From: a virus
Reading direction: 5' to 3' (one strand)
Length of the DNA stretch: 45,525 nucleotides
Virus record (IMG/VR): IMGVR_UViG_3300020473_000049
Span: 1-45,525 of that record
Shown: in pieces, positions 2,832 to 42,910 of the stretch
How positions within the stretch are numbered: position 1 is the stretch's first letter
Layout: the number at the start of each line of letters is the position of its first letter
The notes under the pieces: generated by a model
Told to the model about the DNA's origin: nothing
Seen by the model: only the letters and a program-made list of their open reading frames with translations
Databases searched by the model: none
Made by a program: the position numbers and the translations under genes

Positions 2832-2840
2832 AAGGATAAT

Positions 2841-2939: not shown

Positions 2940-2945
2940 AACATT

Positions 2946-6424: not shown

Positions 6425-6433
6425 GTATTGTAT

Positions 6434-8990: not shown

Positions 8991-8995
8991 ATATC

Positions 8996-9003: not shown

Positions 9004-9006
9004 AAT

Positions 9007-9633: not shown

Positions 9634-9634
9634 A

Positions 9635-13599: not shown

Positions 13600-13619
13600 T
13601 TGAAAGTATAATAAAAACT

Positions 13620-16007: not shown

Positions 16008-16983
16008 AATTTTTAGAAGAACAGTAAAAGATAGACGTAGAGGTGCTAGTTGGGACCTACTAAAATACATGGCAGAAGGTATAAAGGCTTGTGGAGATGA
16101 ACCTGTTATTGTAAACGAAAATATGGAAGGCCAATGGCAAAAAGACGAAATGGAGCCACACACAAAGATAGGTTGTATGTTTGGTTATGGTGGATCAAAA
16201 CAAATGCACCACACTAAAGGCAGACGAAGAGATTTAGTTGAACGTGCAAAGAAAAAAGGCATTTACATTATTACATTTGACGGAGGCATATTATCTAGTT
16301 TTGGAAACACAATAACAGATCCTAACCACCATTGGCGTGTAGCATTATATTCTCCAATGAACAACGGAAACTTTTTAAGTGATAACAGTCCGCCTGATAG
16401 ATGGGAACGAATGAAAAAAATATGGAATATAAACTATGCTCAGTGGAAAAAATTAAATCCTAATGATCCAATACTTTTTGTTTTACAACCTAGTGATAAC
16501 TGGTCTATGAACGAACTTGATCCTATAGAATGGTTTAAAGATGTTTACAAGAAACTTCGACCTTTAACAAAAAGAAAATTTATAGTTCGGCCACATCCAA
16601 ATCACGTTGCGGCAATGGAAAAACGATTAGACGAATTTCCTAAAGACGGTGTAGAAGTTATAATTGGCCAAAAGTTTTTTAAAGGAGATGAAAAAAAGTA
16701 CTATAGATTTAATTACCAAGACGCATTAAATAATTGTCATGCTGTTGTTACTCACAATTCTACTGCCTGCATCGACTCTTGCATTCGTGGAATACCTACC
16801 TTTGTTACCTCAGATCTTGCACTTGCTTGGCCTGTAGCCAATAAAGATTTATCTAAAATTGAAAACCCAGAATACCCAGACAGAGACCAGTGGGTATACG
16901 ACTTAGGTTACAAACAATGGACAGAAAAAGAAGTTAGAGACGGTACAGTATTCAAACGTTTTAAAACAAAATTAGGATTATAA
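15997..16983 (+). CDS. GT-B-like polysaccharide transferase, paralogue 3
   Basis: 328 residues, the longest of the four paralogues. FIVRPHPNHVAAME (RxHP), AVVTHNSTACIDSCIRGIPTF, LSKIENPEYPDRDQW and LGYKQWTEKEVRDG are in the same order as in the others. The RPHP plus HNST pattern is that of capsule export-associated Kdo/sialyl-type transferases. An N-terminal extension carries a Gly/His-rich FGYGGSKQMHH segment. It overlaps the methyltransferase by 11 nt and is followed after one base by the AsnB-like gene. Confidence 0.75.
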   Translation: MKVEIFRRTVKDRRRGASWDLLKYMAEGIKACGDEPVIVNENMEGQWQKDEMEPHTKIGCMFGYGGSKQMHHTKGRRRDLVERAKKKGIYIITFDGGILSSFGNTITDPNHHWRVALYSPMNNGNFLSDNSPPDRWERMKKIWNINYAQWKKLNPNDPILFVLQPSDNWSMNELDPIEWFKDVYKKLRPLTKRKFIVRPHPNHVAAMEKRLDEFPKDGVEVIIGQKFFKGDEKKYYRFNYQDALNNCHAVVTHNSTACIDSCIRGIPTFVTSDLALAWPVANKDLSKIENPEYPDRDQWVYDLGYKQWTEKEVRDGTVFKRFKTKLGL

Positions 16984-16984
16984 T

Positions 16985-18769
16985 ATGTGTGGTATATACG
17001 GAATAACTGATCACGATCCTACTTTTATTCAAAATTATATTAAAACTTGTGACCATAGAGGACCCGACGGAAATAAAGTTTGGTGGGATCCAGACCACAA
17101 TGTAACACTTGGACATAATCTTTTAAGTATTATGGCAAATCCTCAACTATCAATACAACCATGGAAAACACCTAAAGGTAATACACTTGTATATAATGGT
17201 GAAATATTCAACTACTACGAACTAAAAGAAAAGTATAAAGGCAAAGGCTTTGCTGGTATTACAGGTTGTGATACAGAACTACTTGCTTGGGGACTAGACG
17301 AATTTGGATTGAGTTTTATAGAAGAGATAGATTCAATGCACGGGTTTGCTTACTATGAACCAAAGAAAAAACAAATTACATTAAGCAGAGATCATGCAGG
17401 AATAAAACCTGTGTACTATGCTGAAGTAAAACAAGGATTAGTGTTTGGTTCTGAAATAAAAGGTATGTTAGACAAAGTTCCTGGGTCAAGATCAGTTGAT
17501 AAACTAGCAATGAGTTGTTTAGCACACACAGGAATAAATGCTACACGTAATACAGTGTTTGGTAATATTAAAAAATTATTAGCAGGTGAAACACTAGTTT
17601 ACGATATACCAAATAAAAGAATCAAAAATATTAAAAGAATTTTTATAAAACCAAATAGCACTGAAAAGTTTAATCCAGAAGAGTTTAGAACAATGGGACA
17701 TAACACAGTTAAAATGTGTAGTATTGGACAAAGAAAAATTGGTGTATTCTTAAGTGGCGGGTTAGATTCTAGTTTAGTTGCACACGAACTTAATAAAATA
17801 ATGCCACCAGCACTTACGTTTACAAATAAAATGAATCCTAATGTTATAACTGAAGAAAATTTTAACAGTGATGCTAATGCGGCAAAAACACTTGCAGAGA
17901 TAGAAGGATACAAACATACTGAAATAGAAATTACTCCACAAAAAATGATTGAGTGTTGGGATGACTCAATGTATTTTATGGAGCAACCTATGTATAATCA
18001 AAGTGTGCCAATGTATTGTTACACTAACAAAGTTTTACACGAACATGGAGTTGTAGTTACAATGGCAGGAGATATGGGAGACGAAATACTAGGAGGTTAT
18101 CCAAAATATTGGAAAATGAAAGGTGCTGATTTTCTTGTAAGGCAAATTGGCAAACCAAAAATTGAATCATGGAGTGACATAGTAAGTTTATGGATGAACA
18201 GGATAAAAAGACCGTTGTTATTAGCAGACATTGGTGGAGACATAGACAAGAACGTAATAAAAGAAGAGATGCTAAAATTGTATCCTGATGACTTATACAA
18301 TCCAAAAGATCCAGTAAACTCTTATATGGCATTAGACTGTGTAACTCAAGTACCAGAAGAATTTTTTAATAGAAACGATAAATTTGGAATGGCTTATGGT
18401 ATGGAAGGACGTTTTCCGTTAGCAACTAAAATGTTTATGCAATATTGTATGAATATTCCAAGCAGTGAAAAAATTGGACCACAAAAAAGTCAAACAAAAC
18501 TTTTAACAAAAATTGCATATAAAAAACATCTACCTACACATATCATTAACAAATACAAAACAGGATGGACTGTTCCAATTGGGTATTGGTTAACAATGAA
18601 TATGAGTAAAGAAATTAAAAAGTTTTATGAATCTCGTTTGGGTGTAATTAATGCACACAACACAACTGCACATTTAAATATTGTTAAGGCAAGTCAAAAA
18701 GCAGGCAAGGCATTGTTACCTGCTTGGATAATTAATGACTGGCTTAAAACTTATAAAATAAAATTATGA
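16985..18769 (+). CDS. AsnB-like glutamine-dependent amidotransferase
   Basis: 594 residues, full length for class B asparagine synthetase. MCGIYG gives the N-terminal Cys nucleophile (C2) of the glutaminase, with RGPDG (about 25-29), YNGEIFN (70-76) and CDTEL. The ATP-pyrophosphatase loop FLSGGLDSSLVA lies near 254-265, and AGDMGDEILGGYPKYW and MEGRFPL follow as in the synthetase. It may make asparagine. In O-antigen loci, homologues amidate sugar uronates, which would suit its place between glycosyltransferases. It overlaps the next gene as ATGA-type. Confidence 0.9.
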   Translation: MCGIYGITDHDPTFIQNYIKTCDHRGPDGNKVWWDPDHNVTLGHNLLSIMANPQLSIQPWKTPKGNTLVYNGEIFNYYELKEKYKGKGFAGITGCDTELLAWGLDEFGLSFIEEIDSMHGFAYYEPKKKQITLSRDHAGIKPVYYAEVKQGLVFGSEIKGMLDKVPGSRSVDKLAMSCLAHTGINATRNTVFGNIKKLLAGETLVYDIPNKRIKNIKRIFIKPNSTEKFNPEEFRTMGHNTVKMCSIGQRKIGVFLSGGLDSSLVAHELNKIMPPALTFTNKMNPNVITEENFNSDANAAKTLAEIEGYKHTEIEITPQKMIECWDDSMYFMEQPMYNQSVPMYCYTNKVLHEHGVVVTMAGDMGDEILGGYPKYWKMKGADFLVRQIGKPKIESWSDIVSLWMNRIKRPLLLADIGGDIDKNVIKEEMLKLYPDDLYNPKDPVNSYMALDCVTQVPEEFFNRNDKFGMAYGMEGRFPLATKMFMQYCMNIPSSEKIGPQKSQTKLLTKIAYKKHLPTHIINKYKTGWTVPIGYWLTMNMSKEIKKFYESRLGVINAHNTTAHLNIVKASQKAGKALLPAWIINDWLKTYKIKL

Positions 18770-19635
18770 AATACAAAGTAATTACAACATTTAAACCTGG
18801 AGACTGGGACAAGTATTCAAAACGAATGGTTGAGTCTGTTTTGCAAAGATGGCCCAACGTTGCAATTACAGTTTACTATCAAGGTAAGCAACCTGTATTG
18901 GACGACAAAAGAATAGATTGGATTGATATTGATAAAGCAAATCCAAACTTACACAATTTTAGAGAAGATTATAAAAATGATCCTGTTGCTAATGGTCAAC
19001 TTGAGGGTATTCCTAATGGCGTAAGACGTTCGCCACGTTTAGCAACTGAAGGCGGTAGAGATGCTTTTAAAGAATCTTATTTGTGGAATGCAGTAAAATT
19101 TAGTTACAAAGTATCATGTATTACACACGCAATAAGAAACAATCAAAATTATGACTATGTTATATGGCTCGATGATGACACATATACATTCAGAGACATA
19201 CCTAAAAGTTTTATAGAAGAACTGTGTCCAAACAACACACTAGTTACATATCTTGGCAGAGAAAATAAAATAGGCAGTAACAAATATCCAGAATGTGGAC
19301 TTGTTTGTTACAATATTAAACATCCATTAGTACAAAATTTTGTTACAGATTGGGAAAAACTTTATACTTCTGCAAGTATATTTGACTTACTTGAATGGCA
19401 TGATTCATTTCTATTTTGGCACATGACTAAAGAATATAAACAAAAACATAATGCAAAAGTAAATGATATTGGTTATTCTAAAGGTGTAAAAGGACATCAT
19501 GTTTTTGTTAATAGTGAACTTGGACTTTACATTGATCACTTTAAGGGAGATAGAAAAACTTTTAAAAGTTCACGTGCAGAAGATATTAGAAAAACACCTA
19601 AAATGACAAAAGTTGATTACTGGAAAAATAAATGA
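18766..19635 (+). CDS. GT-A-type glycosyltransferase (paralogue of the gene at 43857)
   Basis: 289 residues. A conserved core AVKFSYKVSCITHAI is followed by YVIWLDDDTYTF (DxD-like metal site), YLGR, ECGLVCYN and NSELGLYIDHFKG. These blocks appear in the same order in the protein at 43857-44729, so the two are paralogues. They resemble small GT-A transferases of phage and bacterial polysaccharide loci. The start overlaps the AsnB-like stop and its stop overlaps the next ATG. Confidence 0.78.
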   Translation: MKYKVITTFKPGDWDKYSKRMVESVLQRWPNVAITVYYQGKQPVLDDKRIDWIDIDKANPNLHNFREDYKNDPVANGQLEGIPNGVRRSPRLATEGGRDAFKESYLWNAVKFSYKVSCITHAIRNNQNYDYVIWLDDDTYTFRDIPKSFIEELCPNNTLVTYLGRENKIGSNKYPECGLVCYNIKHPLVQNFVTDWEKLYTSASIFDLLEWHDSFLFWHMTKEYKQKHNAKVNDIGYSKGVKGHHVFVNSELGLYIDHFKGDRKTFKSSRAEDIRKTPKMTKVDYWKNK

Positions 19636-20504
19636 AAATAAGTTGTTTTACAAGATACGGACCACTTAATTCTAAACCTATATTTGGTTCTTTAATAAAA
19701 AGTATGCAAGATGCTGGCGATACAGTTCTTATAGATAAAGACGACAACTGTGATGTAGCAGTAATATGGTCGGTGTTATGGCAAGGTAGAATGGCTCATT
19801 ATCGTCCAATATGGGAGAACTACCGAACAAAAAATAAACCTGTTATAGTAGTTGAAGTTGGTGGAATAAAAAGGAACGAAACTTGGAAAATTGGAATTAA
19901 TGGTATTAACAGAGAAGCAGATTTTGTTAACAAAGATGTTGATGGTGAACGTTGGAAAAAATTTAATATAGATCTTAAACCATGGACACACGTAGGTGAA
20001 GAAATAATTATTTGTGGACAACATCACAATAGTCATCAATGGAGAAATAATCCTCCAATGCAAAAATGGTTTGAACAACAAATTACAGAGATAAGAAAAT
20101 ACAGTAAAAGAACAATAGTAATTAGACCACACCCAAGAAATAATATACACATAGACACTAAAAAGTTTGAAAATGTAAAAGTAGTTCATCCTGTTAGAGA
20201 TAGAAATACATATGACGATACCGATTTTAACAAGAGATTAAAAAGTGCTTGGGCCGTTGTTAACTATTCAAGTAATCCTGCTATGCAATCTGTGTTTAAT
20301 GGTGTGCCTGTATTTGTTTCAGAGGCTAGTTTAAGTTATGATGTTGGTAATAAATCACTTGCTAATATTAATAATCCAGAAAGACCAGATAGACAAACAT
20401 GGGCAAATCAGTTAGCATATACTGAATGGTGGCCAGATGAGATAGCAAAAGGTAAACCATGGAAAAGAATTAAAAAACAATTAGAGGAAAAATATTTAAA
20501 ATGA
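19632..20504 (+). CDS. GT-B-like polysaccharide transferase, paralogue 4
   Basis: 290 residues. TIVIRPHPRNN (RxHP), AVVNYSSNPAMQSVFNGVPVF, LANINNPERPDRQTW and LAYTEWWPDEIAKG repeat the family signature. The N-terminal half (ISCFTRYGPLNSKPIFGSL) is closest in layout to paralogue 3. Overlaps of 4 nt on both sides show one operon. It probably transfers a different sugar from its sisters. Confidence 0.75.
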   Translation: MKISCFTRYGPLNSKPIFGSLIKSMQDAGDTVLIDKDDNCDVAVIWSVLWQGRMAHYRPIWENYRTKNKPVIVVEVGGIKRNETWKIGINGINREADFVNKDVDGERWKKFNIDLKPWTHVGEEIIICGQHHNSHQWRNNPPMQKWFEQQITEIRKYSKRTIVIRPHPRNNIHIDTKKFENVKVVHPVRDRNTYDDTDFNKRLKSAWAVVNYSSNPAMQSVFNGVPVFVSEASLSYDVGNKSLANINNPERPDRQTWANQLAYTEWWPDEIAKGKPWKRIKKQLEEKYLK

Positions 20505-21124
20505 CAGATAAAAAGTTTTTAGTACAGTCTTTTAATAAAGTTAAAAGTGTAACAACACTTGATCAATTCTACGAACAATGTAAAAGTTCAATGGATCGTC
20601 ATTGGGAATCTACATATGAGTCTAATAAAGATATTCTTCAAGATAAAAAATGTGTTGACGTTGGGATTTGGTTAGGAATTTCTAATGCTTATGCTTTAGA
20701 AAAATTTAATTTACAAACAACACACGGTATTGATCCAAACAAAGATTTTATAAAAGTGTGTGCCAAACTACTACCAAACACAAAATTTTATAGTACAATA
20801 GACGAAGTAGATGAAACTATTGATACAGATGTTCTTTTTATGCTTGGATTGATTCCGTTTTTTGGAACACAATGGAAAGAACATTTAAATCGTATTTTGC
20901 AAAAAATTAATGCAAACTACATAATTCTTCGTCATCAAACTTATGATGAGACAGAAGGTAGTTTTACAAACCCAAAAGAATATAACGTATTAGGACTAAC
21001 TGATTACAGCACGTCTGCTGATGTAGATGATGTGGTTTGGTTTTTGCAAAACCAAGAATGGCTGTTAACAAAAAAACAAGAAAACGTTTATACATTTAAA
21101 AAATATGGACAGAAAACATTATAA
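20501..21124 (+). CDS. class I SAM-dependent methyltransferase
   Basis: 207 residues. KCVDVGIWLGISNAYALE (about 50-67) is a SAM motif I, THGIDPNKDFI is motif II, and DVLFMLGLIPFFG falls at motif IV. No substrate domain is recognisable. In this island a sugar O-methyltransferase is the simplest reading. It overlaps its neighbours by 4 and 20 nt. Confidence 0.7.
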   Translation: MTDKKFLVQSFNKVKSVTTLDQFYEQCKSSMDRHWESTYESNKDILQDKKCVDVGIWLGISNAYALEKFNLQTTHGIDPNKDFIKVCAKLLPNTKFYSTIDEVDETIDTDVLFMLGLIPFFGTQWKEHLNRILQKINANYIILRHQTYDETEGSFTNPKEYNVLGLTDYSTSADVDDVVWFLQNQEWLLTKKQENVYTFKKYGQKTL

Positions 21125-21884
21125 TCAAGTTAATTGGCGTAGAAAAGCAAGACACAAAGAGCCAATTGAATGGCAACCTTATACGGGTGAAACTATTACT
21201 GTTAATACAATTCTTCGTAAAGGTAAAAAAATTATAGAAAAAGGATACTACGAAGACCGAGTTAAAGCAGTTCCTAGAGGTAATGCTTATATTATAGGAA
21301 ACGGTCCTTCGCGTAAAGATTTTGATTTAACTACGTTAAAAGCAACAGGACAAACCTATGGTTGTAATGCTTTATATCGAGATTTTATTCCAGATTATAT
21401 TTTTAGTATTGATGCACAGGTAACAAATACAATGGTTAAAGACAAAGTATATGAAAAATGTTTTCACTATGCTCCGTCACTTGAAGTTAATCGACACCCT
21501 AAAGGTGGGCCGCCTGTGTTACATTTAATTCCAGACAATCCATATTCCATAAGTGGCAACCAAGCAATTTGGACTGCCTGTGTACACGGACACAAAAATT
21601 TATATCTAATAGGGTTTGACTTTAGAGACTATGGCAAAAATCAACTTAATAACATATACCAAGACACTGAACATTATGGTCCTAGGCATGGTGATACAAT
21701 ATTTGATAATTGGTTAAAATGGTATAGGGATCATCTTAAGCAAAGACCTTATTGTAATTTTACAATAGTCCACGATAATCCGCCTGAATACTTACACAAC
21801 GTACAAACAGGATATGATGTTGGAAATAGTTTTTTAATGACTTATAAAGAGTTTAACGATAAAGTCTTAAACCAACCTGAGTAA
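21105..21884 (+). CDS. Maf/DUF115-like glycosyltransferase-type protein
   Basis: 259 residues. AYIIGNGPSRKDFDL (about 61-75), TYGCNALYRDFIPDYIFSIDAQ and SGNQAIWTACVHGHKNLYLIGFDF match the GxGPS / D-x-D pattern of the MAF_flag10 (DUF115) fold, whose characterised members transfer nonulosonic acids to flagellin. Here it might attach a sugar to a phage or host surface protein. It is the last gene of the rightward arm and converges by 32 nt with the SprT-like gene. Confidence 0.6.
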   Translation: MDRKHYNQVNWRRKARHKEPIEWQPYTGETITVNTILRKGKKIIEKGYYEDRVKAVPRGNAYIIGNGPSRKDFDLTTLKATGQTYGCNALYRDFIPDYIFSIDAQVTNTMVKDKVYEKCFHYAPSLEVNRHPKGGPPVLHLIPDNPYSISGNQAIWTACVHGHKNLYLIGFDFRDYGKNQLNNIYQDTEHYGPRHGDTIFDNWLKWYRDHLKQRPYCNFTIVHDNPPEYLHNVQTGYDVGNSFLMTYKEFNDKVLNQPE

Positions 21885-22320
21885 ACTTATCTCTAAAAGA
21901 ATAAAATTTTTCGTTATGGTTAGAATATGGGTCTTTCATGACTTGCATTTGATATAAATGTACCATTTCGTGTGCTAATGTTTCAATAAAGTCTTTCCAT
22001 TTTGGAAATTTACAATGTAATTCAATTCTAAAGAATACTTCTGTTTTATAGAAGGGAATAATTCTTTGATTGAACGTACCTTTTCTACAATGTCTATTGT
22101 CCCAATCAGCAACACATCTGCCCCAGTCGTGATGTAGTTTCTTAATTTGTATTTCGCAACCACTTAATCTATTGTTGAATAGCAACTGATTTAATCTTCT
22201 ATACCAGTGTGCCGCAACTAACGGAGTGGGTTTATATGCAGTCACTCCTTCTTTAACAGTTAGAGTTCTCTTAAACTGTTTTTTTAGTGTTTTTCTTTGA
22301 CTTTTTACACGTTTTTTCAT
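21853..22320 (-). CDS. SprT-like zinc metalloprotease-domain protein
   Basis: 155 residues. HEMVHLYQ gives the HExxH zinc site (H117, E118, H121) and SNHNEKFYSF supplies the third His (H135), the SprT/Spartan layout. A basic N-terminus (KKRVKSQRKTLKKQFKR) suits DNA or RNA binding. Related cellular proteins cleave DNA-protein crosslinks; a phage version might do so or process phage proteins. It is divergent from the replication operon at 22371, and its end overlaps the glycan island. Confidence 0.8.
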   Translation of the reverse strand: MKKRVKSQRKTLKKQFKRTLTVKEGVTAYKPTPLVAAHWYRRLNQLLFNNRLSGCEIQIKKLHHDWGRCVADWDNRHCRKGTFNQRIIPFYKTEVFFRIELHCKFPKWKDFIETLAHEMVHLYQMQVMKDPYSNHNEKFYSFRDKFTQVGLRLYR

Positions 22321-22323
22321 AGG

Positions 22324-22351
22324 TTGACAAAAATTACCATTATGTTATACT
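22324..22351 (+). promoter_or_regulatory. sigma70 promoter of the HARP-like gene / uvsW operon
   Basis: TTGACA (22324-22329), 16-nt spacer, TATACT (22346-22351). Start of transcription expected near 22358, 13 nt before the first ATG. It drives the rightward replication operon in early infection by motif inference. Confidence 0.78.
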
Positions 22352-22370
22352 ATTAATTATCTAGAAACAC

Positions 22371-23717
22371 ATGAGCGAAATGCATACAGAAAACCCAAAA
22401 ACTATTAACGAAGCACTTAAAATATTAGCATATAATGATTATTTTTGGCACCATGGCCCAAAAACGCCAAATACACTGATTAAGCCTCATCACAAAGATT
22501 TTGAAACTGTAAAATCTCTAGCGGAGGCTCAGTATGCTTGGACTGAAAAACAGGCCAAATTAGCACTGGTAATTCTCAAAAGATACCTAACAAAGTTTCA
22601 AAAACATGGTATGGATATTAAAAGTTTATTAGATAGTCCAAAATATGAAGAGCCTTTTAGGGTAATAAGTTTTGTAAAAAGCATAGAAAAATATATTGAC
22701 GACACAGACGAAGAACCAAAAATAGAACTACGTTTTCCTTACAATAAAAAAATTGTTACGTTAATTAGACATCTAAAAGATAAAAAAGGATTACCGGGTG
22801 GATATGCAAAATACGAAGGTGAATCTAAAGTGTGGACGTTTAAACAAACTGATGTTACAACATATTATCTAACTTTAATTGCAATTAGATACGATTTTAA
22901 ATTTGTTGATCAAACATTACTTGATGATTACTACACAGTAAGAAAAGAAATTGAAGGCTACAAACAACCTAAAGCAAGACTTATTGGAGACCAGATTGTA
23001 ATTGATAATGCATCTGAATCATTAGACGAGTATTGGAATAACAATTTAAAAGATAAAAAAATATTATTACAAGTTGATAGTTTAAAAAACTTTGGTATTG
23101 ATCCTAGAAATATTAAAGTTAAGGCCTGGTCAAAACTAGGTGGCAAAATTGCTCACGGAAGTTATCATAAACTATGGATTGACCGAAACGAATACAGCAG
23201 AGATGATGTACTTGCAGGACTATCAGAACTAGATTGTTTTCCTATTGTTATGCCTGTAAGTGGCGATCCTAATTCAAAAGAAGATGCAGATGAATGGTCA
23301 CAATGGTTAAAAACATTTGAACGCCATGGTATAGAAAACAAAAATATGTCTTTTGGTTTTGATATTAAAGAACCAAAAAAACCAACAGAAGAACACTGCG
23401 AATACAACGATAATATTGTAGGTAAAATGGAAGAATCACAATTCCAAATATTATATGAAGTTCATCAATTGAGTAAACAATTCAAATATATTGACAAAGA
23501 AACAAAAGTAATATTTGTAAGAAATAGAATACCAAGAGCATTAATAAAATCAAAAATAAAACCAAAAGCATCACTAATTGCTATAGGCGGCGGTTATTAC
23601 ACTGCTGGAACAGACAACCTAAAAAGATTTCTTGATTCTTTACCTAAAACGTTGTATTATAATGATCATAGGCCATCAAGTTGGGAATGGCATGATAACA
23701 TTATAATAAAACTATGA
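22371..23717 (+). CDS. HARP-like phage protein preceding uvsW, function unknown
   Basis: 448 residues with no helicase motifs. Two regions (about 118-178: ELRFPYNKKIVTLIRHL, then GYAKYEGESKVWTFKQ) recall HARP-type repeats that in SMARCAL1-like proteins help anneal DNA: a beta strand, a helix and a conserved Trp. It ends 4 nt inside uvsW, so the two are translated together, and it may give UvsW its substrate specificity. This role is an inference; otherwise the protein is unrecognised. Confidence 0.6.
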   Translation: MSEMHTENPKTINEALKILAYNDYFWHHGPKTPNTLIKPHHKDFETVKSLAEAQYAWTEKQAKLALVILKRYLTKFQKHGMDIKSLLDSPKYEEPFRVISFVKSIEKYIDDTDEEPKIELRFPYNKKIVTLIRHLKDKKGLPGGYAKYEGESKVWTFKQTDVTTYYLTLIAIRYDFKFVDQTLLDDYYTVRKEIEGYKQPKARLIGDQIVIDNASESLDEYWNNNLKDKKILLQVDSLKNFGIDPRNIKVKAWSKLGGKIAHGSYHKLWIDRNEYSRDDVLAGLSELDCFPIVMPVSGDPNSKEDADEWSQWLKTFERHGIENKNMSFGFDIKEPKKPTEEHCEYNDNIVGKMEESQFQILYEVHQLSKQFKYIDKETKVIFVRNRIPRALIKSKIKPKASLIAIGGGYYTAGTDNLKRFLDSLPKTLYYNDHRPSSWEWHDNIIIKL

Positions 23718-25183
23718 GTTCGTGTAAATTAGTAATTAAAGACGAAGTAAACGTAAAATTTGAGAATCTAGATCTTAAATGGAGACAACGTTTACACAAT
23801 AAATTCAAATACCAAGTTCCATATGCATTTCATTTACCCTCTGTTAAGTTAGGCAGATGGGATGGTAAAATTGCATTTTTTGGTTTAGGTGGTACAACAT
23901 ATTTGAGTCTTGTTGAACAAATACTTCCTATACTTGAAGAAGCAGGAGTATATGTTGACTTTGAGGATCAAAGAACTAAACACGATTTTCAATTTAATGC
24001 AATAAACAAAGATTATTTGTCTAATATACAATGGCCAGAGAATCATCCATGTGCTGGACAAAATATAGAATTAAGAGACTATCAAGTGGAAACTATAAAC
24101 AAGTTTATAGAAAACCCACAATGTATACAAGAGATCGCCACTGGTGCAGGTAAGACCATTATTACTGCGGCACTGTGCCAGTTGGTTGAACCTTATGGAC
24201 GTACAATAACAATAGTTCCAAACAAAAGTTTAGTTACACAAACAGAAGAAGACTTTCTTGCTTGTAATTTAGATACAGGTGTTTATTTTGGAGATAGAAA
24301 AGAAGTAGGAAGATATAACACAATAGCAACTTGGCAATCTTTAAATGTATTAGAAAAAAGATCAAAAGATCAACACAGCACTGAGTTTAAAGAATTTTGC
24401 GAAGGTATTAATACTGTAATAATAGACGAAGTACATATGGCAAAAGCAGATGTGCTTAAAAGATTATTAACAGGACCATTTGCACACTGCGGTATACGTT
24501 GGGGATTAACAGGCACAGTACCTAAAGCAGAATTTGAATTTATGGGTATTAAAGTTTCTATTGGTGAAGTTATAAACAAACTTCCTGCTAAAGAATTACA
24601 AGACAAGGGTGTACTTGCACAATGCCATGTAAATATTTTACAAACACAAGACCACCCAATGTTCAAAAACTACCAAGAAGAATTAAAATGGCTAACTACG
24701 GATAGCAACAGGATGACCTGGATTGCACAAACTATAAAAGATATTTCTTCATCAGGAAACACACTAATTTTAGTAGACAGAATATCCGCGGGAGAAATAC
24801 TACAAAAAAAATTAAAAGATTCTGTGTTTATATCAGGATCAACTAAAAATACAGAAAGGAAAGAACACTACGATGAAGTGTCTACAACACAAAACAAAAT
24901 CATTATTGCGACTTATGGGGTCGCATCTGTTGGTATTAATATTCCTAGGATATTCAATCTTGTTCTTATTGAACCTGGCAAGTCTTTCGTAAGAGTTATA
25001 CAGAGCATAGGACGAGGTATTCGTAAAGCAGAAGATAAAGACAATGTGCAGATTTGGGATATTACCAGCAGTTGCAAGTTTGCAAAAAGACACTTAACAC
25101 AAAGAAAAAAGTTTTACAAAGAGGCAAATTATCCGTATAATATAGAAAAGATAGATTATGAAAATCCTTACACTGGAAAATAG
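23714..25183 (+). CDS. uvsW: UvsW-like SF2 DNA helicase
   Basis: 489 residues, close to T4 UvsW (503). An N-terminal beta-rich DNA-binding domain (1-110) is followed by Walker A ATGAGKT (142-148), DEVH box (238-241), GLTGT motif III, and the C-terminal VIQSIGRGIRK motif VI. UvsW unwinds R-loops and branched intermediates and helps the switch to recombination-dependent replication. The next ORF begins 26 nt before its stop. Confidence 0.94.
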   Translation: MSSCKLVIKDEVNVKFENLDLKWRQRLHNKFKYQVPYAFHLPSVKLGRWDGKIAFFGLGGTTYLSLVEQILPILEEAGVYVDFEDQRTKHDFQFNAINKDYLSNIQWPENHPCAGQNIELRDYQVETINKFIENPQCIQEIATGAGKTIITAALCQLVEPYGRTITIVPNKSLVTQTEEDFLACNLDTGVYFGDRKEVGRYNTIATWQSLNVLEKRSKDQHSTEFKEFCEGINTVIIDEVHMAKADVLKRLLTGPFAHCGIRWGLTGTVPKAEFEFMGIKVSIGEVINKLPAKELQDKGVLAQCHVNILQTQDHPMFKNYQEELKWLTTDSNRMTWIAQTIKDISSSGNTLILVDRISAGEILQKKLKDSVFISGSTKNTERKEHYDEVSTTQNKIIIATYGVASVGINIPRIFNLVLIEPGKSFVRVIQSIGRGIRKAEDKDNVQIWDITSSCKFAKRHLTQRKKFYKEANYPYNIEKIDYENPYTGK

Positions 25184-25661
25184 AACATACACATTAGAAA
25201 AAATACCTGAATATGTTGATGAACAATTAAGATTTGCTGTAATGGATAATTCAGATCCTGAGAATCCAGATTTCTTTTACATACCTTTAATATTTTTAGA
25301 AAGTTTTAATGCTCCGGCGGCAGTGTTACAAATAGGAAAATATAAAATAAAAATGCCTTTGGATTGGAAAATGTTAATAGGTGAGCAAGGACAACCAGAA
25401 ATGCACGTGCTACCAATCACAAGTTTAAATGATAGAGGGTTTGATGCATTCACATTTAATCCATTATCAAGTGCTAAACCAGATTTCTTTCCTATTGATG
25501 TTGTAGATATTTACACTGAGGTTAAATGGTATTTTCCTAAAATTAAATCAGGACAACTACTTGCTGTTCCTTTAACAAACGGACCAACACCTATTTGTGC
25601 TTATTTTGTAAAAGATATTTCAAGACAATGTGAAATGGTTGATTATGGCTCGGTCTGGTAG
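25158..25661 (+). CDS. uvsW-linked phage protein, unknown function
   Basis: 167 residues, mostly beta-strand in appearance (FFYIPLIFLESFNAPAAVLQIGKYKIKMPL) with no enzyme motif. It overlaps uvsW by 26 nt and the next gene by 17 nt, so it is part of the replication operon. Position suggests an accessory or regulatory role for late transcription or replication, but I do not recognise the family. Confidence 0.7.
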   Translation: MKILTLENRTYTLEKIPEYVDEQLRFAVMDNSDPENPDFFYIPLIFLESFNAPAAVLQIGKYKIKMPLDWKMLIGEQGQPEMHVLPITSLNDRGFDAFTFNPLSSAKPDFFPIDVVDIYTEVKWYFPKIKSGQLLAVPLTNGPTPICAYFVKDISRQCEMVDYGSVW

Positions 25662-25905
25662 AAAGCACGTCAGCATTGAAGCACCGGTAATGAAAATACA
25701 AGGTGCATATGTTTGGATGGATAGATATTGGCCGGTGGATTTGTTTACGTGGATGAGAAAAGAAAAAATGCAATTTACAGAATTAAAAATGAGAAATAAT
25801 AAACTTACACTCTATTTTCCAACAGCAAAAGAGTGTACAATGTTTGGATTAAAATATGACAGAGAAAAGCAAAAGGAAATTTTTCGAACTTCGGAATGGT
25901 CTTAA
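25645..25905 (+). CDS. small basic phage protein, unknown function
   Basis: 86 residues from ATG 25645. Basic N-terminus MARSGRKHVSIE, several Trp (VWMDRYWPVDLFTWMRK) and a strand-rich C-terminus (KLTLYFPTAKECTMFGLKYD). No known fold identified. It overlaps both neighbours and belongs to the same transcript. Confidence 0.65.
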   Translation: MARSGRKHVSIEAPVMKIQGAYVWMDRYWPVDLFTWMRKEKMQFTELKMRNNKLTLYFPTAKECTMFGLKYDREKQKEIFRTSEWS

Positions 25906-26314
25906 AGCAGTAGACTACAGAAACAAAGACTACTACGATAGAATAGACGATCATGAAAAGTCGTTGTATTCTCCTTTTATGTTGATGAGATATGCTTCAA
26001 GTGTTTCATCTAAAGATCCTTTTTATGTTGAACACTATGTAGAAATGGTAAACGAATGTGTTAATAAAAATTTGTTTGCATTATCTAGCAAACACAAAAA
26101 ATTATGCTGGGTATTAACTTCTATGTGTGGAGCATTACAGCAACAATTTCATCCATGGATAAAACCTATGAAACGTGTTTCAAATAAAAGTTTACAACAA
26201 CTAGAACAAATTTATCCAACATGGAATACTGAGGACTTAGAAGCATTAGACAAAGTAATTACAGACAGAGAACTTGAAGAGTTGCTGGAGGCACATGGCA
26301 TCGAATCTAAATAA
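25856..26314 (+). CDS. 62: gp62-like sliding-clamp loader subunit (probable)
   Basis: 152 residues. Its layout matches marine T4-like gp62: an N-terminal helix FFELRNGLKAVDYRNKDY, SPFMLMRYASS, a central LCWVLTSM...HPWIK (basic helix then a Pro-Trp turn), and a C-terminal IYPTWNTEDLEALDKVIT helix pair. gp62 joins gp44 to load gp45 clamp on primed DNA. gp44 is not in the window, so the assignment rests on sequence pattern and replication context. Confidence 0.6.
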   Translation: MTEKSKRKFFELRNGLKAVDYRNKDYYDRIDDHEKSLYSPFMLMRYASSVSSKDPFYVEHYVEMVNECVNKNLFALSSKHKKLCWVLTSMCGALQQQFHPWIKPMKRVSNKSLQQLEQIYPTWNTEDLEALDKVITDRELEELLEAHGIESK

Positions 26315-26981
26315 ATGTACCTATTGCGATAAAGAATTTGCACGAGAAAGAACTTTACAAGTGCATCTTTGCGAACCTAAAAGAAGATATCTACAAAAAA
26401 ATGAGAAGTGGGTGCAGAATGCTTTTATGGTGTTTCAAAGATTTTATCAAATACATCAAAACAATATGAAAGAAAAAACATATGAAGATTTTTGTAGTTC
26501 AGCATACTACAATGCGTTTGTTAAATTTGGTAGATTTATGATGCATATAAATCCACTGTATCCAGAAAAATATATAGACTATGTAATATTATCAAAAATT
26601 AAATTAGATCATTGGGCAAGAGATAATTTATACGAAGCATATCTAATTGATACATTAAAAGTAGAACCGGTTGAGGCGGCACTGCAAAGAAGTATTGCAA
26701 CAATGATGGACTGGGCAGGAGAACAAAATGCACAATGGAGTGACTACTTTAGATTAGTAAACACTAATAGAGCAGTACAACATATACAACAAGGAAAGAT
26801 ATCTCCGTGGATAGTTCTTGGTTGCAACGCAGGAAAAAAAATGTTAAAATCGTTTAGTGACGAACAATTACAATTAACTGCTAGATATATTAGTCCAGAG
26901 TTTTGGAATTCAAAGTTTAAAAGTTATCCAGCAGATTTATTATTTGTACAAGAAACAGCCAAGGAGGCAAAAATTGAGTAG
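26295..26981 (+). CDS. C2HC zinc-finger phage protein
   Basis: 228 residues from ATG 26295. C8-x2-C11-x12-H24-x-C26 forms a zinc finger at the N-terminus, followed by a long helical region with a DNA- or protein-binding look (WVQNAFMVFQRFYQIHQ; FGRFMMHINPLYPEKYIDYV). No homologue is recognised with certainty; comparison by eye with T4 gp59 does not fit well. Its place between a clamp-loader-like gene and a DnaE-like gene suggests a replication function. Confidence 0.65.
   Translation: MASNLNKCTYCDKEFARERTLQVHLCEPKRRYLQKNEKWVQNAFMVFQRFYQIHQNNMKEKTYEDFCSSAYYNAFVKFGRFMMHINPLYPEKYIDYVILSKIKLDHWARDNLYEAYLIDTLKVEPVEAALQRSIATMMDWAGEQNAQWSDYFRLVNTNRAVQHIQQGKISPWIVLGCNAGKKMLKSFSDEQLQLTARYISPEFWNSKFKSYPADLLFVQETAKEAKIE
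26961..26967 (+). promoter_or_regulatory. Shine-Dalgarno AAGGAGG that selects a TTG start
   Basis: AAGGAGG at 26961-26967 lies 6 nt before TTG 26974. There is no in-frame ATG at the right distance, so the ribosome-binding site fixes a non-ATG start. Confidence 0.75.
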
Positions 26982-27216
26982 AGTTAAAATTGATATTGAT
27001 GACGAATTAGATTTTGATTTGGAAGAAGGAGACATGATATTACACATTAAACACACTGGAGAAATTGGTAAAGTGTGTATGCCAGATATGAATTTAAAAG
27101 TAAAAGAAAGTATTGGGTATCATAAAATGTTACAGTGTTTAGAAATTTTAAAGCCTGGTACAAGAAAAGAATTTATTAAGTATCAAGAAAAAAAAACTAA
27201 AAGGACGTTAAACTAA
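26974..27216 (+). CDS. small acidic protein with TTG start
   Basis: 80 residues from TTG 26974, chosen because AAGGAGG sits at the right spacing. The N-terminus is strongly acidic (KIDIDDELDFDLEEGD) and the C-terminus basic (KYQEKKTKRTLN). The stop shares one base with the DnaE-like start (TAATG). No domain is recognised; an ssDNA- or protein-interaction role is only a guess from charge and neighbours. Confidence 0.65.
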   Translation: MSRVKIDIDDELDFDLEEGDMILHIKHTGEIGKVCMPDMNLKVKESIGYHKMLQCLEILKPGTRKEFIKYQEKKTKRTLN

Positions 27217-27806
27217 TGCCTGATGTAGATATAGATTTTTTTGATAGAGACGGTGTATTAAAATTATTTAAACATACTCCTGCATCAATTATCAATGAGA
27301 AAGCAAACGAAAAACATAAAACTGGTGTTTACTTTCATGCAGTACCAGAACATCCAGTAACAGGACACGCAACACTTGATTATAAAAAAGCAGAAGACAG
27401 AGGCTATTTTAAAATTGATTGTTTAAATGTTAATCTTTATAAAAATGTAAAATCAGAACAGGAACTTGTAGAACTAATGATACAAGAACCTAATTGGGAT
27501 ATGCTTAAAGATCAAACAATAGTTGATGAACTATTTCATTTAAATGGTCATTTCAGTATTGTTTCAAAACTACAACCAAAAACTATAGAACAACTTGCGG
27601 CTGTATTAGCAATTATACGTCCAGCAAAAAGATATCTTGTAAATGCACCGTGGGATGATATTTTAAAAGAGGTTTGGATTAGGCCAGCAGATGGCAGTTA
27701 TTTCTTTAAAAAATCACACGCAGTTGCTTATGCACAGGCAATCGTAGTTCAGATGAATTTAATTGCTCGTGATAAATATAGTTTTAGTGCAACACAGGAA
27801 ACGTAA
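27216..27806 (+). CDS. miniature DnaE-like (PolIII alpha fragment) protein
   Basis: 196 residues, far shorter than bacterial DnaE (about 1,160), yet holding its landmarks in order: PDVDIDFFDRDGVLK (the PDxDxDF catalytic-palm motif), GYFKIDCLNVNLY (cf. G-x-x-K-x-D-x-L-G-L), LQPKTIEQLAAVLAIIRPAK (cf. P-x-x-x-x-DL-x-x-x-x-A-x-x-RPG), and FFKKSHAVAYAQAIVVQM (cf. FNKSHA-x-AYA). PHP, most of the fingers and the tau-binding tail are absent. Whether it polymerises or regulates host PolIII is unknown. Confidence 0.7.
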   Translation: MPDVDIDFFDRDGVLKLFKHTPASIINEKANEKHKTGVYFHAVPEHPVTGHATLDYKKAEDRGYFKIDCLNVNLYKNVKSEQELVELMIQEPNWDMLKDQTIVDELFHLNGHFSIVSKLQPKTIEQLAAVLAIIRPAKRYLVNAPWDDILKEVWIRPADGSYFFKKSHAVAYAQAIVVQMNLIARDKYSFSATQET

Positions 27807-27939
27807 ACTCACTAAAAAATCAAAGAACAAGAAATCCAATCATCGCTCAAAGTATAACAGTTATCAGCCGGATAGTCCTTTAACATTACACTATCTTACA
27901 ACAGGTGCTATACTTCCTGAAAAAAAGAAAACTAGATAG
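27787..27939 (+). CDS. possible small lysine/arginine-rich ORF
   Basis: 50 residues from GTG 27787 in a frame other than the upstream gene. N-terminal half very basic (KRKLTKKSKNKK), then a Tyr/Thr/Pro-rich half. No Shine-Dalgarno sequence or late octamer precedes it, and it overlaps the 3' ends of both neighbours. It fills an otherwise empty 125-nt gap. May be a real nucleic-acid-binding peptide or chance. Confidence 0.3.
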   Translation: MQHRKRKLTKKSKNKKSNHRSKYNSYQPDSPLTLHYLTTGAILPEKKKTR

Positions 27940-28306
27940 GTTTTCTAACTAATTGGATAGTTCTTCTTTTTATTCGTTTCTTTGAAATTTCAGAAAGTTT
28001 TACAGTAGGGCCTTCTACTATTTGAATATCTTTTGAATTTAATGTTACTAGAGTTGTACGGAAGTAACGAAAATCTCCTTTAAGGAATATATTAATTGGT
28101 AGTTTTCTATTAGACTCATACCACCAAATTTCACCACATTTCAAAAATCTCATTTTATCCTGCGGACTCATTAATCTACCGTAGTCATAGAAACTTATTA
28201 CATTATTGTCTTGGTTTTGTACAATACCAACATACTCTAAGTCGCCCTTACGTATTAGGCTTAAAAATGGGAATTTATCTCTTAATGTCTTAAAAATTTC
28301 GTTCAT
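27932..28306 (-). CDS. conserved-type phage protein, unknown function
   Basis: 124 residues: FPFLSLIRKGDLEYVGIVQNQDN, CGEIWWYESNRKLPINIFLKGDF and KKRIKRRTIQLVRKPI at the C-terminus. Pattern and neighbourhood suggest a widely conserved T4-like marine phage protein of unknown role. CAGAGG immediately precedes the ATG. It runs against the operons on both sides, with divergent promoters in the 33-bp gap to 28339. Confidence 0.75.
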   Translation of the reverse strand: MNEIFKTLRDKFPFLSLIRKGDLEYVGIVQNQDNNVISFYDYGRLMSPQDKMRFLKCGEIWWYESNRKLPINIFLKGDFRYFRTTLVTLNSKDIQIVEGPTVKLSEISKKRIKRRTIQLVRKPI

Positions 28307-28314
28307 CCTCTGTC

Positions 28315-28332
28315 CATAAATATTGTTAAATA
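28315..28332 (+). promoter_or_regulatory. two late-type octamers before a structural gene
   Basis: CATAAATA (28315-28322) and GTTAAATA (28325-28332); the second lies 6 nt before the ATG at 28339. Late-type promoters fit a structural protein. Confidence 0.5.
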
Positions 28333-28338
28333 TGTACT

Positions 28339-29145
28339 ATGCAAACAATACAAAGGTATTTACTCACAAACTCGGTAATCGTTTACCAAAATGGTTATCA
28401 TGGAAGGAACTCAAAAGTGTACGATAGACGTCTACAGGTGTATAGAGGTGTGTATAACCCAATTACGTTTACCTTTAAAAACGAGGATCAAAAGAAACAG
28501 GACATAGTTGGTAAGACTTATACGTTCAATATTGTAGATACTGAGAGCAAAAAAGCAGTAGTTACAAGAACTTTAAAAATACTAGATGACGGATCAACTA
28601 TAGACAGCAAAGGAACTGCTAGTGTAGAAATCACAGAGGGCGATTTACAACCTTTAGATGCAAAATTTTATGAGTATTCTATACAAGAAGTTCTTACAGA
28701 TGGTAGTACTGTGGTAACTTATGCAGATACAAGTTATGTCAGTGCTGGTACTATTGAAGTGCTAGATGGTGCTTATCCACAGTTTAATGCAAGTACCTCA
28801 GTTACACAATTTACAGGTACTGGTGGACCATTAGCAAAAACATCTGGTTCAATTAATGCTAAACCAGGTACTAACAATAACAAAGCATTACACACGATTG
28901 CTGTATACACTCAAGATTTTGCAGGAGATTTTAAAGTGCAAGGCACAATGGCTTCAAGTCCTGCTGATGCAGATTATTTTGATATTACCTTAGATGGTGA
29001 AGCATCAAGTACTGTATCGTATATTATATCTACAAGCCAAGTTTACTATTATAACTTTACCGGTGTTTACCATTATATAAGAATTAGTTGGGATAATGCA
29101 ACTGATAACACTGGTAAGATTGACAAAATCCTTTATAGACAGTAA
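28339..29145 (+). CDS. virion structural protein, fibre/baseplate-like
   Basis: 268 residues, beta-rich with many Thr, Ser and Gly. The N-terminal part (ITFTFKNEDQKKQDIVGKTYTFNIVD) is like the Ig-type N-terminal domain of phage baseplate/fibre proteins such as BppU. The C-terminal half (KPGTNNNKALHTIAVYTQDFAGDFKVQGTMA ... YHYIRISWDNA) resembles a jelly-roll receptor- or carbohydrate-binding domain. No signal peptide. Late-type octamers upstream support the structural call. Confidence 0.65.
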   Translation: MQTIQRYLLTNSVIVYQNGYHGRNSKVYDRRLQVYRGVYNPITFTFKNEDQKKQDIVGKTYTFNIVDTESKKAVVTRTLKILDDGSTIDSKGTASVEITEGDLQPLDAKFYEYSIQEVLTDGSTVVTYADTSYVSAGTIEVLDGAYPQFNASTSVTQFTGTGGPLAKTSGSINAKPGTNNNKALHTIAVYTQDFAGDFKVQGTMASSPADADYFDITLDGEASSTVSYIISTSQVYYYNFTGVYHYIRISWDNATDNTGKIDKILYRQ

Positions 29146-29148
29146 AAT
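29120..29148 (+). promoter_or_regulatory. sigma70 promoter of the primase/helicase operon
   Basis: TTGACA (29120-29125), 17-nt spacer, TAAAAT (29143-29148, one mismatch). It lies within the end of the structural gene, and its expected start point coincides with the primase ATG at 29156. Confidence 0.7.
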
Positions 29149-29155
29149 ATAAATT

Positions 29156-30223
29156 ATGAACCTGATCCAGAATACAATTCTGACGTCCATACCTGCGAAC
29201 AAAAAGAAAACACCATCTGGGTGGATTTCTTTTAATGCACCTTGTTGCATTCATAACGGAGAGACTCAAGACAAAAAGAAACGTGGTGGTATAATGAATA
29301 GTGCTGACGGCACAATATCTTATCATTGTTTTAACTGTGGATACAAGGCAAGTTATATAGTTGGCAGACGTTTAACTCAACGTATGAGAACTTTTATGAG
29401 TTACATTGGCATACCAAGTGATACAATTCAAAAGTTAGCCATAGAAGCAATACGTCTTGAAGAATCAGGTGGTACTACATTTCAAAAGAAAAAATTTATA
29501 GGTTTTAACAAAACAAAATTGCCAATTAATTCACGTAAGTTAGAATGGTGGCTAGAAAGATTTCCTGATAAAAAAGTTTGGGATGGAGAAAGATATGTTA
29601 ATAAAAGACAATTAACTAATTTACAAAAAGAAAAAATAAATCATTTATTAACTTATTTAGAAGACAGAGGCATTGGTGCTGACTGGTATGACTTTATGTA
29701 TTCATCAGATCCTTTTTTTGATATGCACAATAGAGTTATTATTCCTTTCTTTTGGAAAGGCGAAATAGTTGGATATACAGGAAGAAGATTGCAAGAACAT
29801 TCTTTTAATAATGACAGCGGAATAAAATACTATACTGATGTGCAACCTGGTTACGTTTTTAATATGGACGCACAAGATTGGACAAGAAAATTTGTTATTG
29901 TGACTGAAGGACCATTTGATGCAATTACCGTTTCTGGAGTGAGTGTGTTGGGTTCAGAGGTAAATGATATACAGCGAGAGTTAATTGATGGACTTAATAG
30001 AAAGGTAATTGTAGTGCCGGACAGAGATAAACCAGGTGAAAAATTAGTAGATCAAGCAATGGAGTTTGGTTGGTCTGTTGCTTTTCCAGAATGGGATAAT
30101 AAGGTTGAAGATGTCGCGGATGCTGTGTTAAAATACGGTAGACTGTTTACTATACAATCAATATTAAAAACAACTGAAAGTAGTAAACTAAAAATAGATT
30201 TAAAGAGAAAGATGTATGGCTGA
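29156..30223 (+). CDS. 61: DNA primase, gp61-like
   Basis: 355 residues (T4 gp61: 342). N-terminal zinc site C30, C31, H33, C58, C61; TOPRIM domain with VTEGPFDAI (about 260) and VVPDRDKPG (about 285), giving the catalytic Glu and Asp. It makes RNA primers for lagging-strand synthesis with gp41. The helicase gene starts 8 nt before its stop, so the two are coupled. Confidence 0.92.
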   Translation: MNLIQNTILTSIPANKKKTPSGWISFNAPCCIHNGETQDKKKRGGIMNSADGTISYHCFNCGYKASYIVGRRLTQRMRTFMSYIGIPSDTIQKLAIEAIRLEESGGTTFQKKKFIGFNKTKLPINSRKLEWWLERFPDKKVWDGERYVNKRQLTNLQKEKINHLLTYLEDRGIGADWYDFMYSSDPFFDMHNRVIIPFFWKGEIVGYTGRRLQEHSFNNDSGIKYYTDVQPGYVFNMDAQDWTRKFVIVTEGPFDAITVSGVSVLGSEVNDIQRELIDGLNRKVIVVPDRDKPGEKLVDQAMEFGWSVAFPEWDNKVEDVADAVLKYGRLFTIQSILKTTESSKLKIDLKRKMYG

Positions 30224-31649
30224 TTATAACTTTGATGTACAAAAATTATATTTAGAAATGTTACTAGCAGATGCAGAATCTTTTGCTAGAGCACAAAATA
30301 TTTTTACTCCAGCAAGTTTTGATAGAAAGTTGCAACCTATTGCAAAATTTATTAAAGACTACATGGAAGAATACAAAGTTATGCCTGACGTTGAACAGGT
30401 TAATGCTAAACACGATATTAAATTAAAATCAGCAAAAGATTTAGATCCAAGTCATTTCAATTGGTTACTAGATGAATTTGAAACGTTTTCCAGACATAAA
30501 GCACTTGAACGTGCAATTTTACAGTCAGCAGACTTACTAGAAAAAGGAGACTATGCTCCAGTAGAGGACATGGTTAAACAAGCGGTAAGTGTTGGACTGA
30601 CAAAAGATCTTGGTACAGACTACTTCGAAGATCCAAAAGGTAGATTAGAGAAACTTAAAAACTCTAATGGACAAGTCAGCACAGGTTGGCCAAACATTGA
30701 TAAGAAACTGTTCGGTGGTTTTAACCGAGGAGAACTAAACATTTTTGCAGGTGGATCAGGCGCAGGTAAAAGTTTATTCTTACAGAATCTTGCAGTGAAT
30801 TGGTCAACTGCTGGTTTGAATACTGTGTACATCTCATTTGAATTAAGTGAAGAACTTACTTCTATGAGATTGGATGCAATGATGACTAACATACCAACAC
30901 GTAAAGTATTTCCAGAAATAGATAATGTTGAAATGAAAGTTAAGATGTTAGGAAAAAAATCCGGATTATTGTTTATCAAATACTTGCCAAGTGGTAGTAC
31001 AATATTAGACGTAAGAACATATGTTAAAGAACTTGAACTAAAAACTAAAAAGAAAATTGATTGTATACTGATTGATTATTTAGATTTAATGATGCCAAAA
31101 TCTAAAAGAATATCTCCAGCAGACTTGTTTATTAAAGACAAATATGTATCAGAAGAACTTAGAAACTATGCAGTAGAATCACAAATGTTATTAGCAACTG
31201 CATCACAATTGAACAGAGCAAGTGTTGAAGAAATAGAATTTGATCACTCTCACATAGCAGGCGGACTTTCTAAAATACAAACAGCAGATAACGTAATTGG
31301 TATCTTTACAAGTAGAGCAATGAAGGAACGTGGTAGATATCAAATACAGTTTATGAAAACTAGAAGTTCAAGTGGTGTTGGGCAAAAAGTTGATTTAGAA
31401 TTCGATGTTGACAGTTTAAGAATTAGAGATTTGGCAGAAGAAGAAAACTATAATCAACATAGTAAAACAAAAAATTTAGTATACGATTCGTTAAAACAAA
31501 AATCAAAAGTAAGCACAGATAAAACTGATGCACAACCAAAAGTACCTGATCCTACAAAAGGTGATGACATTGGTAAAGTTAAAGCAACTGTTGAAGGTGG
31601 CAAACTAAGACAACTGCTTAACGAACTTCACTCAGACGAAGAGCAATAA
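30216..31649 (+). CDS. 41: replicative DNA helicase, gp41 (DnaB-like)
   Basis: 477 residues (T4 gp41: 475). N-terminal helical domain (1-130), Walker A GGSGAGKS (179-186), Walker B CILIDYLDLM (about 285-294), ATASQLNR motif H3 and RGRYQIQFMKTRSS motif H4. It unwinds 5'-3' on the lagging strand with the gp61 primase. The C-terminal 60 residues are a charged tail. It ends before a GC-rich repeat/hairpin block. Confidence 0.94.
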   Translation: MADYNFDVQKLYLEMLLADAESFARAQNIFTPASFDRKLQPIAKFIKDYMEEYKVMPDVEQVNAKHDIKLKSAKDLDPSHFNWLLDEFETFSRHKALERAILQSADLLEKGDYAPVEDMVKQAVSVGLTKDLGTDYFEDPKGRLEKLKNSNGQVSTGWPNIDKKLFGGFNRGELNIFAGGSGAGKSLFLQNLAVNWSTAGLNTVYISFELSEELTSMRLDAMMTNIPTRKVFPEIDNVEMKVKMLGKKSGLLFIKYLPSGSTILDVRTYVKELELKTKKKIDCILIDYLDLMMPKSKRISPADLFIKDKYVSEELRNYAVESQMLLATASQLNRASVEEIEFDHSHIAGGLSKIQTADNVIGIFTSRAMKERGRYQIQFMKTRSSSGVGQKVDLEFDVDSLRIRDLAEEENYNQHSKTKNLVYDSLKQKSKVSTDKTDAQPKVPDPTKGDDIGKVKATVEGGKLRQLLNELHSDEEQ

Positions 31650-41928: not shown

Positions 41929-42147
41929 CTAGTTTTTAGAGTGTGGTGGTAATTTTTTTTCTACCCACCAACGATGTTTTCGAGTGACAGGGTCGTATTT
42001 TCTTACTCTTAACTTTTGATTTTTCTTCTCACCTTTACCAGGTTTGAATGCGTAATAATAAAATGCATGGTCCTTTGAATCTGCATCTTCAGGAACAAGT
42101 CTTACTTTTACGTAGGGTCGTTTTGTTTTTGGTTTGTCTTTTGCCAT
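41929..42147 (-). CDS. rpmG: phage-encoded ribosomal protein bL33 homologue
   Basis: 72 residues. The core KVRLVPE ... FYYYAFKPGKGEKKNQ and LRVRKYDPVTRKHRWWVEKKL lines up with bacterial bL33 (E. coli: [22 protein letters not shown]), sharing the KxDPVxRxH block near the C-terminus. bL33 sits near the E-site of the 50S subunit. It has a longer loop and a basic N-terminal tail ([14 protein letters not shown]). AAGGAT lies 8 nt upstream. It is the third gene of the clpP operon, 40 nt inside the previous gene. Confidence 0.85.
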   Translation of the reverse strand: MAKDKPKTKRPYVKVRLVPEDADSKDHAFYYYAFKPGKGEKKNQKLRVRKYDPVTRKHRWWVEKKLPPHSKN

Positions 42148-42293
42148 CTTTTATATCCTTTAATCCAATAATCCTCTTCGCTATGTAAACCTTCTACAAA
42201 CGACTCTAAATGTTCTGCTGGATCTTTAGTTCGTGTGTCTTTCTTTAGTAGTTTCCAAAACTTCTTCTCTCTAGTCTTCTTTGTTATCGTCAT
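42108..42293 (-). CDS. 61-residue basic protein between clpP and bL33
   Basis: From ATG 42293 (a TTG at 42308 is in frame). Basic N-terminus ([20 protein letters not shown]), acidic middle ([20 protein letters not shown]) and Lys/Gln-rich end. It overlaps ClpP by 23 nt and bL33 by 40 nt. No family recognised; likely co-expressed with both. Confidence 0.65.
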
Positions 42294-42881: not shown

Positions 42882-42910
42882 ATTGTATAGTAAGAAACTT
42901 ATTTTGTCAA
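42882..42910 (-). promoter_or_regulatory. sigma70 promoter of the clpP operon
   Basis: Minus strand TTGACA (42905-42910), 17-nt spacer, TACAAT (42882-42887, one mismatch). Expected initiation is within a few bases of the clpP ATG. It overlaps the end of the epimerase gene. Confidence 0.72.

Follow-up and report, generated by a model that had tools for sequence, protein, structure and literature searches.

Mizuno et al. 2019 (PMC6375957) described virus-borne copies of the ribosomal protein bL33 on more than 10 viral contigs of aquatic origin, and the Microcystis jumbo phage PhiMa05 carries bL33 as one of six ribosomal proteins (bS1, bL21, bL27, bL33, uL11 and uL1; PMC13157829). A bL33 gene on a viral genome is thus not new in itself, and an earlier note on this DNA, which names mainly bS21 and bL12 among the ribosomal proteins of viruses, is too narrow on this point. 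bL33 contacts the E-site tRNA, is loosely bound and is exchanged between ribosomes (PMC6375957). Of the viral proteins tested by Mizuno et al., bS21 and bL12 were incorporated into E. coli ribosomes and HPF was not; E. coli ribosomes carrying the viral bS21 showed about 5% activity in vitro (PMC6375957). Huge phages are known to encode IF1, IF3, S21, L7/L12, EF-G and tmRNA (Al-Shayeb et al. 2020, PMC7162821).

Here we analyse a bL33 homologue in the window, by which we mean the whole stretch of DNA, a 45.5-kb virus record in IMG/VR (Table 1). What this locus adds to the published cases is an affinity to SAR11, a gene string with clpP, a divergent, conserved N-terminal tail, and relatives rich in translation genes.

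Table 1. Positions of features in the window and in its 328-kb relative G361.
Feature	Position	Strand	Remark
Window
Jumbo/T4-type replication module	1798..31649	plus	context of bL33
ssDNA-binding protein	1798-2775	plus	replication module
UvsX	2946-4004	plus	replication module
UvsW-like helicase	23714-25183	plus	replication module
Primase	29156-30223	plus	replication module
DnaB-like helicase	30216-31649	plus	replication module
tRNA-Glu	36406-36480	minus	
tRNA-Ala	36919-36994	minus	
tRNA-Thr	37072-37147	minus	
orf72, 72 aa	41675..41893	minus	next gene after bL33
bL33 homologue	41929..42147	minus	intact 72-aa ORF, ATG to stop
orf62, 62 aa	42108..42296	minus	overlaps bL33 5' end by 40 nt and clpP 3' end by 26 nt
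Shine-Dalgarno-like AAAGGA	42156..42161	minus	8 nt before bL33 ATG; direct sequence reading
ClpP protease, 200 aa	42271..42873	minus	Pfam PF00574 1.3e-80; PHROGs head maturation protease / ATP-dependent protease families
Sigma-70-like promoter TTGACA-17-TACAAT	42882..42910	minus	11/12 match; 8 nt before clpP ATG
G361
IF-1	24872-25090		
bL31	122661-122894	minus	
bL12	141429-141827		
EF-G	266007-268076		
uL11	268839-269261		
ClpX	273525-274796		
IF3_C (IF3 C-terminal domain)	274997-275350		
bS21	275381-275713		
bL33	327201-327416		

The bL33 homologue and its viral relatives

The earlier note, which gives no strand, had read 41929-42147 as a phage-encoded bL33 with a basic N-terminal tail, and the C-terminal block that it quoted is found in the translation of the 72-aa minus-strand ORF; the plus strand contains stops. 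The protein has 22 K+R against 8 D+E, and its N-terminal tail is basic, as the note says; peptides around KYDPITRKHIWWVEK would be specific to the phage. The Pfam search that the note had proposed gave a match to PF00471 (Ribosomal_L33) at 29.3 bits (E 1.1e-6; curated cut-off 25 bits), covering profile positions 1-47 of 47. The score against NCBIfam TIGR01023 (rpmG_bact), a stricter model, was 22.5 bits (E 1.1e-4), narrowly below its equivalog cut-off of 23.95 bits, so that by this model the protein is a bL33 homologue rather than a canonical rpmG equivalog. A profile built from 21 viral relatives retrieved bL33 chains of bacterial and mitochondrial ribosomes from the PDB (best E 3.3e-6), and the top PDB matches in both sequence-profile and fold searches were bL33 chains only. 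The AlphaFold model is of modest confidence (pLDDT 65.8, pTM 0.44); its Foldseek leaders are all ribosomal bL33 (probability 1.00 and TM on the target up to 0.78, but E-values of 0.03-0.3). PHROGs holds no family for the protein. Taken together, these matches bear out the homology claim, and we regard the identification as a bL33 homologue as virtually certain.

Homologues 70-89% identical to the window bL33 occur in at least 26 marine loci in IMG/VR, a figure that overstates the number of independent loci because some are near-duplicates; 15 further viral bL33 loci in IMG/VR are more distant, and a tblastn search against cultured phage records returned no match. The core KL[RK].RK[YF]DP..[RKQ][KE]H is kept in all 21 viral relatives, and the C-terminal WWVEKKLPPH is invariant across the phage family. 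Among the 49 pairs with usable dS (many others were saturated), median dN/dS is 0.086 and the maximum 0.21. The phage bL33 family is under purifying selection, and since the ORF recurs in 26 homologous loci with this median dN/dS, it is not a chance reading frame.

The window represents part of the genome of a T4-superfamily phage, and the core genes of this phage are closest to those of jumbo phages. Its UvsX is 70% identical to that of Sinorhizobium phage Phosso and 68% to that of Agrobacterium phage Atu_ph07, both jumbo phages; for the replicative helicase, the nearest relatives are Pseudomonas phages of the PA5oct kind. Thirty of its 65 ORFs have homologues in a 328,149-bp jumbo phage relative (IMGVR_UViG_3300020477_000990, here G361), among which bL33 shows the highest conservation (84.5%). 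The window also holds many sugar, glycosyl and surface-modification-like genes (4687-21884 and 42899-45508; epimerases, a DegT aminotransferase and an asparagine-synthase-like ORF at 16985-18769) and three radical-SAM-like ORFs (32272-33354, 34368-35387 and 40655-41683, the last with a Pfam score of 34 bits).

Gene order and start signals

In the window, clpP, orf62 and bL33 form a tight overlapping string, and the simplest reading of this arrangement is that they are probably one transcript with clpP first. The promoter-like site before clpP is only suggestive, because the number of promoter matches across the region is not above chance. orf62 has homologues in L001, L002, L005 and L007. The link with clpP made in the earlier note is real for the window and for part of the family: in 15 of the 26 related loci, bL33 has clpP upstream of it, mostly within about 130 nt. 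A universal clpP-bL33 pair was rejected, as bL33 follows a T4-type portal gene in L016 (by Pfam) and in L012 and L017 (by sequence), follows glutamine synthetase and isocitrate lyase genes in L003 and L010, and elsewhere stands among unrelated genes. The glutamine synthetase (GlnII-like) and isocitrate lyase (L003:79-2396, L010:5372-7644) are unusual auxiliary metabolic genes. In L008, a SET-domain protein gene (8228-8695) lies 12 bp downstream of the phage bL33. An RlmN/Cfr-like radical SAM methyltransferase homologue, scoring below curated cut-offs, adjoins bL33 in a separate viral group (L058:4070-4924, L062:5216-6067).

After bL33, a TTGACC-17-TATTAT element (window 41900-41928) lies 6 nt before the orf72 ATG, which is leaderless-type spacing. 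Promoter-like sites peak at exactly this distance from the ATG in 13 genes of G361, 8 genes of a second large relative (G367, 242.6 kb) and 13 genes of the related loci by the stricter count; other distances account for 0-4 genes, and internal ATGs have none at 6 nt. The same peak, though weaker, is present in a SAR11 genome. A leaderless-type promoter, with the -10 hexamer exactly 6 nt before the ATG, also precedes the bS21 gene of G361. Shine-Dalgarno-like motifs lie upstream of 51% and 41% of genes in G361 and G367, and the figures for the window and the SAR11 sample are 27% and 12%; these rates are rough because the gene starts are mechanical calls. The idea in the earlier note that phage bL33 might favour leaderless mRNAs finds no direct support: leaderless-type promoters occur in these phages, but the SAR11 genome has them too, and no link between them and bL33 was seen. 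That the protein selectively favours phage mRNAs we consider unlikely.

Affinity to SAR11 bL33

SAR11 bacteria are among the most numerous on Earth. In a tree that rests on 63 columns, phage and SAR11-type bL33 form a joint clade (support 100/100), and with more SAR11 rows the phage clade (99/96) falls outside the sampled SAR11 crown (SAR11 clade 99/93). Identity of the window bL33 reaches 68% to SAR11, 55% to HIMB59-type bacteria and about 36-48% to other outgroup rows. The phage and SAR11 (Pelagibacterales) proteins share a KVRLVPE start, a GEK-type loop and a VEKKLPPHSK tail, of which the unusual PPHSK end is also found in HIMB59-type bL33. They differ in that SAR11 has KYNP where the phage has KYDP, and in that the host form lacks the N-terminal extension: the phage protein is longer by about 6-8 residues at the N-terminus and by 2 ahead of strand 2. 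At K[YF]xP, all 41 SAR11 rows have N, whereas the phages and all other sampled lineages have D. This split is consistent with an old transfer that preceded the change in SAR11, or with a reversal. On this evidence an origin from the SAR11 stem appears very likely.

The bacterial genomes were assigned to SAR11 from gene order and the 16S site of the SAR11 probe SAR11-441R. The site occurs in 6 genomes of the SAR11-type group, closed genomes among them, and in none of 5 contrast genomes; it had no match in 10 others of the group, and some of these assemblies probably lack a 16S gene. Around SAR11 bL33 the neighbourhood, with ORFs read by eye, is chromosomal (plsX, ihf-like, merR-like, bL33, chorismate-mutase-like, heme-synthase-like). 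By gene affinity, the host of the phage is probably SAR11. As a second host marker, uL11 of G361 is led by SAR11 at up to 67%, too close to the 63% of HIMB59-type bacteria to decide. HIMB59-type bacteria had been the best host candidate in a first search, with bL33 identities of 50-54%, and were displaced by SAR11 in the class-wide search and the trees. bL33 also provides a host marker for jumbo phages that would otherwise stay unassigned.

A second viral bL33 group (L053, bL33 at 4959-5165; L054, bL33 at 5001-5201) resembles HIMB59-type bacteria. It is likely related to HIMB59-type bL33, with a tree placement that is not firm, and its sequences suggest another, separate acquisition of the gene.

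Translation-rich relatives and the proposed role of phage bL33

Besides portal, terminase, tail sheath and baseplate genes, G361 carries five ribosomal proteins (uL11, bL12, bL31, bL33 and bS21) and also encodes ClpP. Its bL31 and bL12 genes are flanked by genes that are also present in the window. About 16 tRNA genes were found, the terminal one repeated at both ends; this 75-bp repeat is a tRNA-Ala gene and could reflect either a complete circular assembly or an assembly stop at a repeated tRNA. The permuted tmRNA belongs to the alphaproteobacterial family RF01849 (131.6 bits; L248:14937-15228, about 94.9-95.2 kb in G361), with the ARAGORN tag ADENLALAA. G367 encodes bL33, bS21, bL12, uL11 and an IF3 C-domain.

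We propose that an ancient transfer from a SAR11-lineage (Pelagibacterales) bacterium gave rise to the phage bL33, that large marine phages of one T4-superfamily group have retained it, and that it is probably made together with ClpP from one transcript. During infection the phage copy would probably replace or top up host bL33 on 50S subunits, because bL33 is loosely held near the E site, and the ribosomes may thereby stay active, or become more active, in making phage proteins. Homology, the intact ORF, purifying selection, SAR11 affinity, the clpP string and the co-occurrence with other ribosomal proteins in large relatives are directly supported elements of this proposal; expression of phage bL33 and its effect on translation are predicted. 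By analogy with other viral ribosomal proteins, incorporation into host ribosomes seems likely, and the reading as a whole, in which a SAR11-derived viral bL33 is exchanged into host 50S subunits to sustain phage translation, reasonably probable. Counting against this reading are the altered phage form (the N-terminal extension and D for N), the modest-confidence model and the precedent of viral HPF.

The long N-terminal tail and the WW (against WF or EF) near the C-terminus might instead make phage bL33 a ribosome poison that enters host 50S subunits and lowers host translation or marks ribosomes. Both the divergent tail and the WW motif are conserved in the phage family, and the activity loss with viral bS21 (PMC6375957) would be a parallel, although that loss may reflect species mismatch. 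A phage needs ribosomes until infection ends, several relatives place bL33 between the T4-type portal and apparently later structural genes, where a shut-off would come late, and EF-G, IF-1, tmRNA and tRNAs in the large relatives speak for translation support; we therefore hold poisoning to be improbable. The link to clpP, which is upstream in 15 loci and part of the overlapping string in the window, would also be explained if the bL33 fold had an extraribosomal use in which it binds RNA or protein as a small factor, such as a ClpP/ClpX adaptor. In other loci bL33 persists with no clpP nearby; the protein is conserved at the positions that mark ribosomal bL33 and has stayed close to the SAR11 form, which leaves such a use improbable as well.

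Phages often sample host genes, and bL33 might be a functionless passenger or a relic of host DNA; this is highly improbable given purifying selection (dN/dS about 0.09), several genomic positions across the 26 loci and a single monophyletic clade. A metagenomic fragment record might also be non-phage sequence or an assembly artefact, ribosomal proteins often being treated as cellular contamination. The replication module in the same 45.5 kb supports the phage origin of the contig that the earlier note had assumed, and together with the ORFs common to a 328-kb record with virion genes and the adjoining T4 portal gene in L016 it makes this explanation exceedingly remote.

Beyond exchange into host 50S subunits, large phages infecting SAR11-type bacteria might build phage-specialised ribosomes with their own, mostly exchangeable ribosomal proteins (bS21, bL12, bL31 and bL33, with uL11), accompanied by EF-G, IF-1, the IF3 C-domain and a tmRNA of alphaproteobacterial type. 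Such a set might change which mRNAs are translated in a host with few Shine-Dalgarno starts; we offer this as a tentative and rather doubtful extension. Phage remodelling of ribosomes becomes easier to test through the connection to SAR11 and through the many translation genes of the relatives. If large SAR11 phages do replace peripheral ribosomal proteins, they would offer a direct and testable case of viral ribosome remodelling on the scale of the ocean.

Compared with described systems, the window bL33 resembles that of Mizuno et al. 2019 (PMC6375957) in its occurrence on aquatic viral contigs, inferred host-to-virus transfer, purifying selection and predicted ribosome exchange; the main text of that study does not mention a SAR11 source for the gene, a string with clpP or a large set of translation genes. 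The huge phages of Al-Shayeb et al. 2020 (PMC7162821) have most of the translation classes seen in G361 and G367, and L33 is not mentioned in the main text. PhiMa05 (PMC13157829) is likewise a jumbo phage with bL33 and other ribosomal proteins, and shares uL11 with G361, but its bL33 has a Vampirovibrio-like source and its set of ribosomal proteins is another. Pelagiphage HTVC008M, a SAR11 myovirus, differs in that its bS21 is a 30S protein, and offers the parallel of a host-derived ribosomal protein entering ribosomes (PMC6375957).
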